Source: Arcobacter porcinus
GTDB lineage: Bacteria > Campylobacterota > Campylobacteria > Campylobacterales > Arcobacteraceae
Reading direction: 5' to 3'
Assembly (NCBI RefSeq): GCF_004299785.2
Contig: NZ_CP036246.2
Span: 1,302,001-1,366,000, forward strand
DNA length: 64,000 bases
Below, one piece after another: positions 5,508 through 48,176 of this stretch (positions are counted from its first letter, which is position 1; each line of letters begins with the position of its first letter). Under the pieces are notes generated by a model. It did no database searches. It had not been told where the DNA came from and saw only the letters and a program-made list of their open reading frames with translations. The translations under genes were made by a program, and so were the position numbers.

Positions 5508-6635
5508 ATGTCAAATTTATATAATGAAATGTTAGATTTTGCAAAAAAAAATATTGCACCATTTACAGATGTTGTTGATAGTGAAGCAAGATTCCCATTT
5601 GAAAGTTTTGAAGCTATAAAAGATAAAAAACTAACAGGACTTTTAGTTCCAAAAGAGTACGGAGGAATGGATCTTGGTTTTTATGAACATACGCAAACTG
5701 TTTTAGCATTTGCAAATTATTGTGCAACAACAGCATTGTGCTATATGATGCATAATGTTGCTACAAATTGTTTAGCAACTCATGGAAGTGAAGAGTTAAA
5801 AAAAGAGTTTTTACCAAAAATTGCAAATGGTGAGATTATGTTGGCTTTAGCATATAGTGAAAGTGGGACAGGAACTCATTTTTATAATCCAGAAATCAAA
5901 GTTACTAAAGATGGACAAATTTTAAGTATGAATGGAAGAAAAAGTTTTGTTACATCAGCACAATATGCAGATTATTATTTAATTGATGCAAACTCATTTG
6001 ATAGTGAAGGACTAGATAATTGGCTGGTTTCAAAAGATTTAGCAGGAATTAATTTTGAACATAATGCTTGGAATGGACTTGGAATGAGAGGAAATGCTTC
6101 TTGTCCAATGATTTTAGAAAATGTAAAAATTGATGAAAGATTTAGAATTGGAGCAGCAGGAAGTGGATTAGATCAAATATTTAATACTGTTGGTCCATTT
6201 TTTATAATGGGATTAGCAGCTGTTTATAGTGGAGTTGCATTAAATGCAAGTAATTCAATAATTGATTACTCAATGAATAGAAAATATAGTGATAATTCAG
6301 CACTTTGTGGTATTCCAACTGTTCAAAATCATATTTCAGATATTTATTCAAAAGCTGCAAGTGCAAAATACTTTACATTAAGTGCAGCAAAAAGTGTAAT
6401 TGAAGCAGACCCAATGGCACAAGCAAATGTATTAGCAGCAAGAATTCATGCTTCATCTATGGCTGTTGATGTTTGTACAACTGCCATGAAAATTGGTGGA
6501 GGAACTGCTTACGCCAAAAGAATAAATATAGAAAGACTTCTAAGAGACTCTTTAGCTGCTGCTGTTATGGCACCAAGTACTGATGTTCTTACAACTTGGC
6601 TTGGAAAAGCTTTAACAAATCAAGAGATAATTTAA
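5508..6635 (+). CDS. Acyl-CoA-dehydrogenase-fold flavoprotein lacking the usual catalytic Glu
   Basis: The 375-residue length and layout fit the acyl-CoA dehydrogenase superfamily: N-terminal helices, a middle beta domain with LAYSESGTG and the KSFVTSA motif, and a C-terminal bundle ending IGGGTAYAKR...RLLRDS. In medium-chain dehydrogenases the RD pair is followed seven residues later by the catalytic Glu of YEGT; here the aligned segment is MAPST, with Ala near residue 355. The fold is also used by flavin monooxygenases such as DszC, which do not need that base. I infer an FAD/FMN enzyme with non-standard chemistry acting with the diiron protein encoded upstream. It is the middle gene of the cassette. 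Confidence 0.78.
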   Translation: MSNLYNEMLDFAKKNIAPFTDVVDSEARFPFESFEAIKDKKLTGLLVPKEYGGMDLGFYEHTQTVLAFANYCATTALCYMMHNVATNCLATHGSEELKKEFLPKIANGEIMLALAYSESGTGTHFYNPEIKVTKDGQILSMNGRKSFVTSAQYADYYLIDANSFDSEGLDNWLVSKDLAGINFEHNAWNGLGMRGNASCPMILENVKIDERFRIGAAGSGLDQIFNTVGPFFIMGLAAVYSGVALNASNSIIDYSMNRKYSDNSALCGIPTVQNHISDIYSKAASAKYFTLSAAKSVIEADPMAQANVLAARIHASSMAVDVCTTAMKIGGGTAYAKRINIERLLRDSLAAAVMAPSTDVLTTWLGKALTNQEII

Positions 6636-6644
6636 GGAGAAAAA

Positions 6645-7475
6645 ATGAAAAAACCAATAGTTGTAGGTTCAGTTGCTTATGATCCAAAAATCGTAACAAT
6701 TTGGGATATCATAAGAGATTATTTTAATGATAATGGTGTAAGACTTGATTATATGCTTTTTTCAAATTATGAAGCCCAAATTGAGTATTTATTAAGTGGT
6801 AAAATCGATTTAGCTTGGAATACAAATGTTGCTTGGGTTAGAACTTATGAATTAAGTAATCATAAAGCACAAGCACTTTTGATGAGAGATACAGATATTG
6901 ATTTCAAATCTGTATTCATTACAAAGGCAAAAAGTGGTATAAAATCAGTTCAAGATTTAAAAGGTAAAAAGTTTGGACTTGGAAGTGCTGATTCAGCTCA
7001 AGCTGCAATTTTACCTCTTAAATATTTAGAAAATGAGTTAAAAGATGATATTAAAGATGTTCAAATCATAAGATATAACTCTGATTTAGGCAAACATGGA
7101 GATACAGGAAGAAGTGAATTTGATGTCTTAGAAGATATTAAAAATGATAAGCTTGATGCTGGTGCTATTGGAGTTAGCACTTGGGTTAGAATTATTGAAG
7201 AAGGACTTTTTCCAGATGGTGAAATAGAAGCTTTTTATACAAGCGAAGGTTATTGCCACTGTAATTTTACAGCACTTGATAATTTAGATGAAAATATTAA
7301 AAAGACTTTTATAGATATGATGCTAAAACAAGATCCAAATGATCCTATTATTAAAAAAATGATGCAGATGGAAGGTCTTAACAAATGGGTTCTTACAACA
7401 GAAAAAGAGCTTAAAGGCTATGATGTTTTAACAGAAGCTATGAAAGAGCAAGATTTGATAAAAAACAATTGGTAA
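6645..7475 (+). CDS. Cytosolic PhnD-like periplasmic-binding-protein-fold protein
   Basis: This 276-residue protein has the two-lobed PhnD/NMT1-type binding fold: VGSVAYDPK strand, LLSGKIDLAW near residue 50, SVQDLKGKKFGLGSADS near 107-122, and DAGAIGVSTW near 180. It lacks a signal peptide and a lipobox, so unlike transport-associated PhnD proteins it should stay in the cytosol. No ABC permease or ATPase lies nearby. Cytosolic proteins of this fold include enzymes (MqnA, MqnD, Thi5), so a catalytic or substrate-presenting role for the two upstream oxidases is plausible. The YCHCNF segment near residue 204 is a possible metal or ligand site. GGAG lies 6 bases before ATG. Confidence 0.72.
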   Translation: MKKPIVVGSVAYDPKIVTIWDIIRDYFNDNGVRLDYMLFSNYEAQIEYLLSGKIDLAWNTNVAWVRTYELSNHKAQALLMRDTDIDFKSVFITKAKSGIKSVQDLKGKKFGLGSADSAQAAILPLKYLENELKDDIKDVQIIRYNSDLGKHGDTGRSEFDVLEDIKNDKLDAGAIGVSTWVRIIEEGLFPDGEIEAFYTSEGYCHCNFTALDNLDENIKKTFIDMMLKQDPNDPIIKKMMQMEGLNKWVLTTEKELKGYDVLTEAMKEQDLIKNNW

Positions 7476-15636: not shown

Positions 15637-16617
15637 CTATTTAATGATATTTCCATAAGGTCCGAATTTTCTTTCTATTGGGTCTTTACCTTCAATATAA
15701 GCATCAGGTGCTTTTACAGCTGCTGATGGGAAATCTTTATCTCTATTTGGTTTTTCAGGTCTTTCATGAGTATCTAAATTCATGTAAGCTGCAACATTAT
15801 AAGCCTCTTCATCTGTTAAAATTGGATGCTCTTTTGTAGCACCTAATGGCATATTACTTCTAATAAAATCAGCTGCTTTTAAAGTTCTGTACATTCCAGC
15901 ACCTTTATTGTAGCTATCTGGTCCCCAAAGTGGTGGGAACATATAACCATTTGCCTTACCTTCATTTTTAACACCAAGACCATCTTCTCCATGACAAGAA
16001 GCACAGTGTTGTGTATAAACAACTTTACCTTTAACAGGATCAGCTGCTTGTTTTTTAATCATTTTTCTATCAATTTTATGAAGTCCTCTTCCCTCAAGCT
16101 TATTAGAAGCCCCAATAGGAACTCCTTGACTTAACCAAAATGTATAAGCTTCCATAGCTTTCATCTCTTTACTCTCAACAGGAAGTGGTTTACCATTCAT
16201 ACTTCTTTGCATACAACCATTGATTCTTTCAGCTAAAGTTCCAATTGTATCCTCTCTTGGTCTATATTGAGGGAAAGCTGCACTTGTTCCTATAAATGGT
16301 GCAGAAAAAGCCTTTGTTCCTGCATCTAAGTGACAAGTTTGACATGAAAAATTATTTCCAGAGTATCTCATTTTTTTATCATCAACCTCTGGTCCAATAT
16401 ACTTATAAGTATGAACTATAAGCTCTTTACCATATCTAATCATATCTCCCATTTGATTATTTGGGATTGTGCTCTCATCTGGAATTTTATACTCAAGTTT
16501 TTCACCCTCATATTTATATCCCATACTGTTTCTTTTTGCAAGCTCTTTTGGATCAAATGCAAATGCACTTGTTGCAAATAGACTACATACCGTTGCTAAT
16601 ACTACTATTTTTCTCAT
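15637..16617 (-). CDS. tsdA: TsdA-like dihaem c-type cytochrome (thiosulfate dehydrogenase/tetrathionate reductase family)
   Basis: A 326-residue exported cytochrome. The signal peptide ends ATSAFA at residue 20. Haem sites are CQTCH (C92/C95/H96) and CASCH (C205/C208/H209). The INGCMQRSMNGKPLP motif contains C135, equivalent to the axial cysteine of the active-site haem in TsdA. TsdA couples thiosulfate to tetrathionate interconversion in the periplasm; the Campylobacter jejuni homologue works as a tetrathionate reductase. It heads an operon with a Cache sensor and a two-component system. The direction of catalysis cannot be told from sequence. Confidence 0.85.
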   Translation of the reverse strand: MRKIVVLATVCSLFATSAFAFDPKELAKRNSMGYKYEGEKLEYKIPDESTIPNNQMGDMIRYGKELIVHTYKYIGPEVDDKKMRYSGNNFSCQTCHLDAGTKAFSAPFIGTSAAFPQYRPREDTIGTLAERINGCMQRSMNGKPLPVESKEMKAMEAYTFWLSQGVPIGASNKLEGRGLHKIDRKMIKKQAADPVKGKVVYTQHCASCHGEDGLGVKNEGKANGYMFPPLWGPDSYNKGAGMYRTLKAADFIRSNMPLGATKEHPILTDEEAYNVAAYMNLDTHERPEKPNRDKDFPSAAVKAPDAYIEGKDPIERKFGPYGNIIK

Positions 16618-39265: not shown

Positions 39266-39763
39266 ATGGCAACAGCTATATTTTATGGAAGTAATAGCGG
39301 GAACTGTGAAGATATTGCAAAAAATATTTCAAATAAACTAGGGAAAATAGATACATTTAACCTAGCTAAAACTAAAGTAGAAAAGATGAATGAATATGAC
39401 AAAATTATTCTAGGAGCTTCAACTTGGGGAAATGGTGAATTAAATGATGACTGGGAAGATGCTTGGAATAACTTTTCTAAATTAGATTTTTCAAATAAAA
39501 CTATTGCTTTATTTGGTTTGGGAGATCAAGAGAGCTATGGAGATGAATTTGCTGATGCAATAGGTATAATTTATGAACAATTAAAAGAATCGAATGCAAA
39601 TATAATAGGATTTACCTCTATTAAAGGATATTATCATGATTACTCAAGAGCTCAAGTTGAAAATGATTTTGTTGGATTAGTGATAGATGAAGACAATCAA
39701 AGTGAGTTAACAGAAGATAGAGTTAATCAGTGGATAGAACTCATTAAATCTGAAATATTATAA
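39266..39763 (+). CDS. fldA: Flavodoxin
   Basis: The 165-residue protein has the FMN phosphate loop YGSNSGNCEDIA (8-19), the ASTWGNGELNDDW loop near 51-63 and LFGLGDQESYGDEFADA near 87-103, all long-chain flavodoxin signatures. It carries electrons in place of ferredoxin, for example to pyruvate:acceptor oxidoreductases, and is essential in some Campylobacterota. Its operon appears iron-regulated. Confidence 0.94.
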   Translation: MATAIFYGSNSGNCEDIAKNISNKLGKIDTFNLAKTKVEKMNEYDKIILGASTWGNGELNDDWEDAWNNFSKLDFSNKTIALFGLGDQESYGDEFADAIGIIYEQLKESNANIIGFTSIKGYYHDYSRAQVENDFVGLVIDEDNQSELTEDRVNQWIELIKSEIL

Positions 39764-46981: not shown

Positions 46982-47707
46982 TTACTCTCCACTTATTACA
47001 TTATCTCCAAGATAAGACATAATTCCATGATCAAAGTTTAATACTTTAGAAAATCCCATTTTTAGCATTATTCTTTGACAATAAGCACTTCTACTTCCAC
47101 TATAACAATATAAAATTATAGTTTCATCTTTTTTATCTGTGATTTGTTCTAAAGCATTATAAAAACTAGTTGTAGGAACTAAATAATCTGTTCCTTCTAT
47201 TCTGGCTTCAAACCACTCCATCCATTCTCTTGTATCAACCAACAAAAACTCTATGATTTTTTGTTTTCTTGCTTTTAGAAGTGCTTCTAGTTCATTTGAA
47301 TTAACTTCATCTTGTAAAAGTATATTTTCACATTCTTGCTTTGAAAGAGTATCTATATCAATATTTTCTTCTTCCTCTTTTTTTAAATAGGAGATCTCTT
47401 CACTTTTTGCTTTTGTACAAAAAATACCACAATGGCACATACCATTTTTTGGAATCTCATTTTCTAAAGCTGGTTTACAGGGACAAAGTCTATTTTCTTC
47501 TTCATTTTCAACAAGCATAAAACAGGGACAATATGTTTTACCATAAATAAGTTTGTTTCTAGTAAGTCCCATCTGAATTGATCTATTTAAATCTTCATCT
47601 GGATTAAATACTAAATTATATTTCTCTAAAACACTATTTGTAAATTTTTTTGTAAGTTCTAGTTCTTCTTTGAACTCTTCTGAATTTGTATCAATTTTTC
47701 TAATCAT
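46982..47707 (-). CDS. Ferredoxin-thioredoxin-reductase catalytic domain fused to rhodanese
   Basis: The 241-residue protein has an FTR beta-type domain with cysteines C60-P-C62, C75-P-C77, C91-H-C93 and C97, the set that holds the 4Fe-4S cluster and redox disulfide. Residues about 150-240 form a rhodanese domain (LLVDTREWMEWF, active loop C201YSGSRS). FTR passes electrons from ferredoxin to thioredoxins; rhodaneses carry persulfide sulfur. The fusion suggests ferredoxin-driven reduction of persulfides or of a sulfur carrier. No FTR alpha subunit is nearby. It is monocistronic. Confidence 0.82.
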   Translation of the reverse strand: MIRKIDTNSEEFKEELELTKKFTNSVLEKYNLVFNPDEDLNRSIQMGLTRNKLIYGKTYCPCFMLVENEEENRLCPCKPALENEIPKNGMCHCGIFCTKAKSEEISYLKKEEEENIDIDTLSKQECENILLQDEVNSNELEALLKARKQKIIEFLLVDTREWMEWFEARIEGTDYLVPTTSFYNALEQITDKKDETIILYCYSGSRSAYCQRIMLKMGFSKVLNFDHGIMSYLGDNVISGE

Positions 47708-47801: not shown

Positions 47802-48176
47802 TTAATTTTCTATTGATTGAATTGATTCTTTATTAAAAGCCAATAGCCTTGCTTTTGTTTTCATCATTTCTTCAGTTGGATATTGATTCTCAACATTTCC
47901 TCTTGCAACTTTTACAAAAAAGTCTCTTGAATTTAAATTGAATCCAAAGTTTGTATTTGAAATAACTACTTCAAAAGTACTCTCTTTTGTTTGTTCATTT
48001 TTTACTTCATTTAGCTTATTTTTTTCATCAACTTGCTTGTTTTCTTGTTTCTGAATCTCTTGTAATTCTTTTTTCTCATCTGCTTTTGCTGATAAGTTAC
48101 TCTCTTTTATCTGTTGCATTTGCACCGTATTGTTATCTTTAAACTGATCGATATTTGCTCTTAATCCTAGTTCCAT
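47802..48176 (-). CDS. Unknown small polar protein
   Basis: I do not recognise this 124-residue protein. Residues 1-70 are extremely Gln/Lys/Glu-rich and probably disordered or coiled (LQEIQKQENKQVDEKNKL). Residues 70-124 look folded: STFEVVISNTNFGFNLNSRDFFVKVARG, cited in part, then a helix. No signal peptide is present. It has a clear AAGGAG ribosome site, a TATAAT box at 48204-48209 (minus strand) and its own terminator, so it is a real single-gene unit. Layout (polar N-terminus, small folded C-terminus) recalls FlaG-like proteins, but I cannot assign it. Confidence 0.6.
   Translation of the reverse strand: MELGLRANIDQFKDNNTVQMQQIKESNLSAKADEKKELQEIQKQENKQVDEKNKLNEVKNEQTKESTFEVVISNTNFGFNLNSRDFFVKVARGNVENQYPTEEMMKTKARLLAFNKESIQSIEN

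Follow-up and report, generated by a model that had tools for sequence, protein, structure and literature searches.

A single gene joins an FTR catalytic domain to a rhodanese

The window (the whole stretch of DNA analysed, 64,000 nucleotides) contains a gene with an ATG start and without internal stop that encodes a protein of 241 amino acids (Table 1). Pfam places a ferredoxin-thioredoxin reductase (FTR) catalytic domain first on the chain (E=4e-30; 104.4 bits, the cutoff being 22), with a rhodanese domain C-terminal to it (E=6.4e-13; 49.5 bits, the cutoff being 22.2). The original prediction of both domains on one chain is therefore borne out, with both Pfam cutoffs passed within one intact frame. 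These are the only two domains above cutoff in the protein, Pfam detecting no flavin (FAD/NADH) domain, and no second PF02943 match is found in the whole 2.02 Mb single-contig genome. Since the N-terminus (MIRKIDTNSEEFKEELEL...) reads without a hydrophobic stretch, the protein is most likely cytoplasmic.

Table 1. Features of the fusion gene and its product
Feature	Position in the window	Strand	Basis
FTR catalytic domain–rhodanese fusion gene	46982..47707	-	ORF, Pfam, conserved fusion
FTR catalytic domain (FeThRed_B, PF02943), residues 15–113	47369..47665	-	Pfam and Foldseek
CPC motif, C60 and C62	47522..47530	-	aligned to FTR chains; invariant in 122/122
Second CPC motif, C75 and C77	47477..47485	-	aligned to FTR chains; invariant in 122/122
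CHCGIFC: C91, H92, C93 and the extra C97	47417..47437	-	alignment to FTR chains; conservation counts
Interdomain linker, residues 114–138, model helix 123–130	47294..47368	-	between Pfam domains
Rhodanese domain (PF00581), residues 139–232	47012..47293	-	Pfam and VIA-align
Rhodanese active loop C201-Y-S-G-S-R-S207 (C-x4-R)	47087..47107	-	conserved in 122/122

Identity to the fusion protein is 40–66% in 27 aligned two-domain relatives and 50–62% in 54 further ones. The recurrence of the two-domain frame in relatives, together with key residues that are identical throughout a set of 122 distinct fused proteins (165 frames minus duplicates, chosen by profile score and not by motif), argues that the fusion is not a product of chance.

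The neighbours in the window, named by Pfam, are PanB, RuvB, an AI-2E transporter and a HerA-like protein; the genes for the fusion and for the AI-2E transporter run towards each other. Lying 94 bp upstream of the fusion gene, a 124-aa ORF (47802–48176, minus strand) has no significant family (best Pfam E 0.024) and is FlaG-like by eye only; a relative occupies the same position in another locus (L065). Elsewhere in the window (5508–7475, plus strand), an acyl-CoA dehydrogenase-like gene adjoins a substrate-binding-protein-like gene, and the two reach 269 of 600 and 320 of 400 bits against the Rv1679/Rv1680 family models, below cutoff. We note that this is a mycobacterially named gene pair in a campylobacterotal genome.

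Active-site residues of both domains are conserved

Alignment to FTR chains places CPC (60, 62), CPC (75, 77) and CHC (91, 93) of the fusion protein on FTR positions. None of the six cysteines varies among the 122 distinct fused proteins, and 120 of these also keep the active-site histidine, H92. We take their roles to be those of spinach FTR, with C60, C75, C77 and C91 as cluster ligands and C62 and C93 forming the active disulfide. C126 and C210 (103 and 102 of the 122, respectively) are common without being obligatory.

The original prediction spoke of seven FTR-type cysteines. All seven are indeed present and six are of FTR type, but the seventh, C97, is specific to the lineage. In the alignments listed, its counterpart is Leu in FTR chains of the plant type and Val in both 4tpu and 7pwe; C97 is found in 120/122 fused proteins and in 30 of 32 separate Campylobacterota FTR frames (27 of the 32 distinct). 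Given the Leu or Val of the solved relatives and this lineage-wide retention, we regard C97 as a mark of the Campylobacterota FTR domain and not as an FTR cysteine. A divergent FTR-domain protein, seen at L052 5697–6374 and L053 5735–6382 in genomes G190 and G061, scores 50–54 bits to the FTR profile and reads CHCALFG, without C97; it has a long C-terminal extension in which a rhodanese loop was not seen by eye.

The fusion gene has Cys codons at both active-site positions and is without in-frame TGA. Its match to the FtrB double-selenoprotein model (NF041072) reaches 57.6 bits against a cutoff of 160, which leaves it outside that family. Selenocysteine was also considered for the separate FTR genes, since an in-frame stop was flagged in a few PF02943 matches, and was rejected for the three that were translated (G218, G237 and G220), where the flagged stop falls past the C-terminus.

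The rhodanese active cysteine, originally described as intact, proves to be so: C201 sits in CYSGSRS, and C201, G204, S205, R206 and S207 are identical in every one of the 122 proteins. A C-x4-R loop is the mark of a sulfurtransferase-type (persulfide-carrying) rhodanese. The loop of separate rhodaneses varies (e.g., CRTGNRT, CRTDNRS, CSGGDRS), and the strict GSRS loop is thus a property of the fused form. The C-x4-R loop and all six FTR cysteines are invariant over the same set, and selection thus seems to maintain two active sites on a single chain.

Structure model and fold matches

An AF2 model built from 55 sequences (pLDDT 90.1, pTM 0.68) leaves the orientation of the two domains open, and its pLDDT drops to 61 at residues 111–120, which run into the linker. 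Foldseek matches the model to rhodanese structures and to the FTR and ferredoxin:disulfide reductase (FDR) structures 7c2b, 7bzk, 1dj7, 2pu9 and 7pwe. In VIA-align, the top 50 rows were all taken by the rhodanese half, with Z of 11.4–16.1 to rhodanese-fold structures, and the FTR matches come from Foldseek. Among these rows are the rhodanese domains of several NADH-dependent persulfide reductases and their kin: CoADR-RHD 3ict (Z 14.6, rmsd 1.8, 99 residues), NPSR 3nt6 (Z 13.2, rmsd 2.4, 94 residues), Npsr 6pfz (Z 12.2, rmsd 1.6, 85 residues) and CoAPR 8a56 (Z 11.9, rmsd 2.0, 90 residues). Fold likeness to persulfide reductases shows no function by itself.

The fusion is widespread in Campylobacterota

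A survey of the fusion across Campylobacterota, suggested at the outset, was run and shows the architecture to be conserved. PF02943 is matched in 77 of 249 sampled genomes, and combining the coordinates of FTR matches with those of rhodanese matches places both domains in one gene in 66 of the 249 (66/77 FTR-positive genomes), 65 of them intact. A nine-row profile (A3) built on the rhodanese of fused proteins matches 101/249 genomes at E <= 1e-8, many weakly. In one genome, a fused FTR–rhodanese gene with stops in its FTR part (G039:C1:187409-188389) adjoins a stop-free separate FTR gene.

Eleven FTR-positive genomes are unfused (G013, G029, G031, G036, G047, G061, G074, G096, G166, G203 and G223). 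The rhodanese lies elsewhere in the genome, apart from the FTR gene, in G047, G061 and G096, while G013, G029, G031, G036, G074 and G166 have weak rhodanese matches only (<60 bits); from these last six we conclude that such an FTR domain need not be accompanied by the rhodanese of the fusion. Conversely, G116, G194 and G239 carry the rhodanese (>100 bits) without FTR.

Within the window's family, which we take to be Arcobacteraceae from the nearest names, a full-length fused frame is present in 84 of 100 genomes. Of the remaining 16, six show partial or separate matches (G284, G319–G322, G330); the other ten divide equally into five that match only weakly and five that do not match at all. One genus among them (g67, G319–G322) has the rhodanese alone (145 aa) in two genomes and FTR alone (114–117 aa) in two, which may reflect a fusion that was split or that lost one of its parts.

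Of 491 confirmed relatives the best 80 were analysed: at 79 of these loci a single ORF carries both the C..GSRS loop and the FTR motif, and at the last (L140) the fusion was found by profile search. Carriers named in these 80 include Arcobacter, Aliarcobacter, Poseidonibacter, Malaciobacter, Sulfurospirillum, Sulfurovum and Sulfuricurvum. Nearly all of the 80 titles are Campylobacterota, with one "bacterium" and one Desulfosporosinus, the latter probably a mislabelled bin.

Split pairs and domain trees

In five genomes (G203, G218, G220, G223 and G224), an FTR gene is followed directly by a rhodanese gene of the same family, with 31–132 bp between matches; G218, G220 and G224 have the split pair in addition to a fused copy. 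A plasmid collection yielded one further pair, from Sulfurovum, and two rhodanese-only matches in other phyla. On this Sulfurovum mangrovi plasmid (NZ_CP087125.1), FTR and rhodanese are annotated as two genes 65 bp apart, and the public annotation names the two domains only. Occurrence fused in some genomes and adjacent in others is the usual sign of proteins that act together, and the adjacent pairs in five genomes and one Sulfurovum plasmid, set beside the fused genes of others, point to a working partnership of the two halves. The predicted functional link between them is thus supported by architecture, conserved residues, retention and the adjacent-gene form. At one locus (L191, 4838–6877) we observe all three forms in one run: an FTR gene, a gene for the fusion and, from the same family, another stand-alone rhodanese gene.

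In domain trees, fused and separate copies group by kind: the labels change 4 times on the FTR tree and 2 times on the rhodanese tree, against 22.8 and 17.9 with shuffled labels. The FTR tree has 110 columns for 114 rows and 52 of its 111 inner branches are open, and we therefore claim neither a single fusion event nor an ancestral split operon.

Electron carriers, neighbours and sulfur oxidation genes

The genome encodes a PF01855 oxidoreductase of the 2-oxoacid:ferredoxin type, and the window itself carries a long-chain flavodoxin gene (39266–39763, plus strand; 198 bits against the TIGR01752 cutoff of 146.75) about 7 kb from the fusion gene. With both at hand, low-potential electron carriers are likely present, and the flavodoxin is a possible electron donor to the FTR domain. 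No match to the FTR alpha (variable) chain, PF02941, was found in the window's own genome by a search in which the control, Synechococcus, was matched.

Gene neighbourhood was considered as a guide to function and set aside. Frequent same-strand neighbours within 100 bp are housekeeping-like sets that differ between families; naming them from sequence, we take them to be rplI-, hslV-, hslU-, era- and argG-like in some families and clpA-, aat- and ispH-like in others. Neither a sulfur nor a ferredoxin gene is prominent among the 45 commonest neighbour clusters listed.

SoxZ is present in 51 of 249 genomes, and an FTR gene occurs in 50/51 SoxZ-positive against 27/198 SoxZ-negative genomes, counts that are uncorrected for phylogeny. 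This co-occurrence is confounded and seems to run largely between families. Two Arcobacteraceae genomes (G202 and G240) have FTR without SoxZ. In a family whose sequences look Sulfurospirillum-like (f10), SoxZ accompanies FTR in 3 of 12 FTR-positive genomes, the other nine all being fused, and in another (f5) it accompanies FTR in none of seven, of which six are fused (one of these the broken gene of G039) and one, G223, is split. FTR carriers without SoxZ in these two families indicate that SoxZ is not required. The link to sulfur metabolism drawn in the original prediction is accordingly weak, the neighbours being housekeeping-like and the SoxZ co-occurrence phylogenetically uncorrected. As a separate observation, a 326-aa protein encoded in the window (15637–16617, minus strand) matches SoxA at 60.9 bits, under the cutoff of 110, and is perhaps a c-type cytochrome and not a clear SoxA.

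A possible ferredoxin-driven persulfide reductase

We tentatively favour, with confidence that stops short of even, a reading of the fusion as a cytoplasmic ferredoxin- (or flavodoxin-) driven persulfide or polysulfide reductase, a function suggested by its domain anatomy and by the precedent of the NADH-dependent persulfide reductases. The originally suggested ferredoxin-driven release or reduction of sulfane sulfur fits both. By analogy, the catalytic cycle would have three parts: (I) C201 would accept a sulfane sulfur, supplied by polysulfide, thiosulfate or a low-molecular-weight persulfide, to give C201-S-SH; (II) as in FTR, reduced ferredoxin or flavodoxin would pass single electrons to a [4Fe-4S] cluster held by C60, C75, C77 and C91, which would in turn reduce the C62–C93 disulfide; and (III) C62 would attack the C201 persulfide, or receive its sulfur, and C93 would resolve, with HS- leaving and C201-SH restored. 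C97, near the active site, may help as a further thiol, either for resolution or for holding a persulfide. Such an enzyme would probably serve to convert sulfane sulfur made or taken up by the cell into sulfide, for assimilation and detoxification.

We count in favour of this persulfide reductase the profile and structure matches of both domains, their invariant active sites, the retention of the pair in fused or adjacent form, the precedent plan, the presence of TrxB (below), the electron carriers and the SoxZ-positive genomes with FTR (50/51); against it we count the housekeeping neighbours, the unfused FTR genomes, the three genomes with the rhodanese but no FTR, the SoxZ-free carriers, the variable loops of separate rhodaneses and a model that does not fix the domain orientation. 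A bolder form of the proposal is possible and more doubtful, namely that the protein founds a Campylobacterota-wide class of ferredoxin- or flavodoxin-driven persulfide reductases that use an FTR-type [4Fe-4S] cluster in place of a flavin, C97 being an additional thiol beside the cluster that handles sulfur.

The strongest competing reading is a ferredoxin:disulfide (thioredoxin-type) reductase acting on protein disulfides or thioredoxins, to which the rhodanese would be tethered as a redox partner or for docking. Two reviews treat FTR and FDR as reductases of thioredoxin and of disulfides (PMC7278568, PMC9025218). A thiol-redox partner fused to FDR has a precedent in the glutaredoxin/FDR fusion 7pwe, separate FTR genes of the same family occur beside or without the fusion, and the region downstream of the split pair in Sulfurovum mangrovi contains, beyond dapE, a gene of the thioredoxin family. 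Pure docking, however, would not need the sulfur-carrying cysteine and C-x4-R loop kept in 122/122 proteins, and the genome already encodes a standard thioredoxin reductase, TrxB (354 bits against a cutoff of 343.45), so that thioredoxin reduction need not depend on the fusion protein; we consider this rival rather unlikely.

The same persulfide on C201 could instead be handed on for tRNA thiolation or for cofactor or Fe-S assembly, with electrons from the FTR domain resetting the carrier. Rhodanese domains hand on sulfur in other proteins, such as ThiI and MoeZ/MOCS3, and two kinds of neighbour would suit such a role: a gene four genes downstream in L119 and L127 that we take to be a TtcA-like PP-loop gene, and an ORF after a separate rhodanese of the same family in L196 that we likewise take to be NifU-like. 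Yet such neighbours are rare (TtcA-like in 2 of 121 sequences examined, NifU-like in 1 of 16), and in families f2 and f3, which we take to be Campylobacter- and Helicobacter-like and which presumably thiolate tRNA and make clusters, FTR is matched in G166 only; sulfur delivery is in our judgement improbable. We give very little weight to a protective or sensory FTR domain that would regulate the rhodanese through oxygen or sulfide sensing at its cluster. Microaerophiles are numerous among the named carriers, and clusters of the FTR type adjoin a redox-active disulfide, but a sensor would not need both thiols, and the six catalytic-type cysteines (122/122) and the histidine (120/122) are kept.

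To our knowledge, few substrates have been assigned to FTR-like proteins outside photosynthesis. The fusion brings its own partner, since its FTR chain also bears a rhodanese of the persulfide-carrying type, and this arrangement is conserved in a phylum with many sulfur metabolisers. The persulfide reductase reading thus offers a specific proposal for the role of a non-photosynthetic FTR, and would provide a route for low-potential electrons into cytoplasmic sulfane-sulfur reduction without a flavin enzyme.

Comparison with known systems

Two reviews touch on FDR and on FTR catalytic chains that occur outside photosynthesis (PMC9025218, PMC7278568), and selenocysteine-containing FTR is known from two other papers (PMC2398784, PMC13188914). 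Rhodanese-like sulfurtransferases have been noted in Sulfurimonas and Sulfurovum, without an FTR–rhodanese architecture in the sections available (PMC7952632, PMC10045233). In Sulfurovum indicum, according to the portion available, two rhodanese-like genes, not mapped to the fusion's family, are up 2.77–2.82-fold on S0 (PMC10045233), and a paper on sulfur disproportionation names rhodanese-like proteins in general only in its available part (PMC9948710). Among the literature matches listed, available in part and with most subscription papers outside the coverage, none describes an FTR–rhodanese fusion.

The closest precedent in plan is the group of NADH-dependent persulfide reductase, CoADR-RHD and CoAPR, which like the fusion combine a disulfide-reductase module with a single C-terminal rhodanese (Z 11.9–14.6). 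One of them, A. fulgidus Npsr (FAD/NADH, C-terminal rhodanese), acts as a reductase of persulfides and of polysulfide, with its rhodanese cysteine proposed to carry sulfur across to the CoA of the reductase (PMC7969121). Whereas reduction in this group uses FAD, NADH and CoA, the fusion has an FTR-type domain for which a [4Fe-4S] cluster and ferredoxin or flavodoxin would be expected.

On the FTR side, the closest solved relatives by sequence are the FDRs 4tpu (E=1.3e-8), which we take to be the M. acetivorans enzyme, and the Desulfotalea Grx-FDR 7pwe (7.2e-5). Both likewise join an FTR catalytic domain to another small domain; theirs is rubredoxin-like or a glutaredoxin, whereas that of the fusion is a rhodanese, and they carry CYC and Val where the fusion has CHC, as in plant-type FTR, and C97. 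Plant and cyanobacterial FTRC shares the CPC/CPC/CHC pattern and the fold but has an alpha chain and other motif spacing, in contrast to the rhodanese attached here. The FtrB double-selenoprotein is matched weakly by the FTR domain of the fusion, which has Cys instead of Sec in its active site. In sum, both domains belong to known families and the reductase–rhodanese plan is known, while the FTR version with a rhodanese is new.
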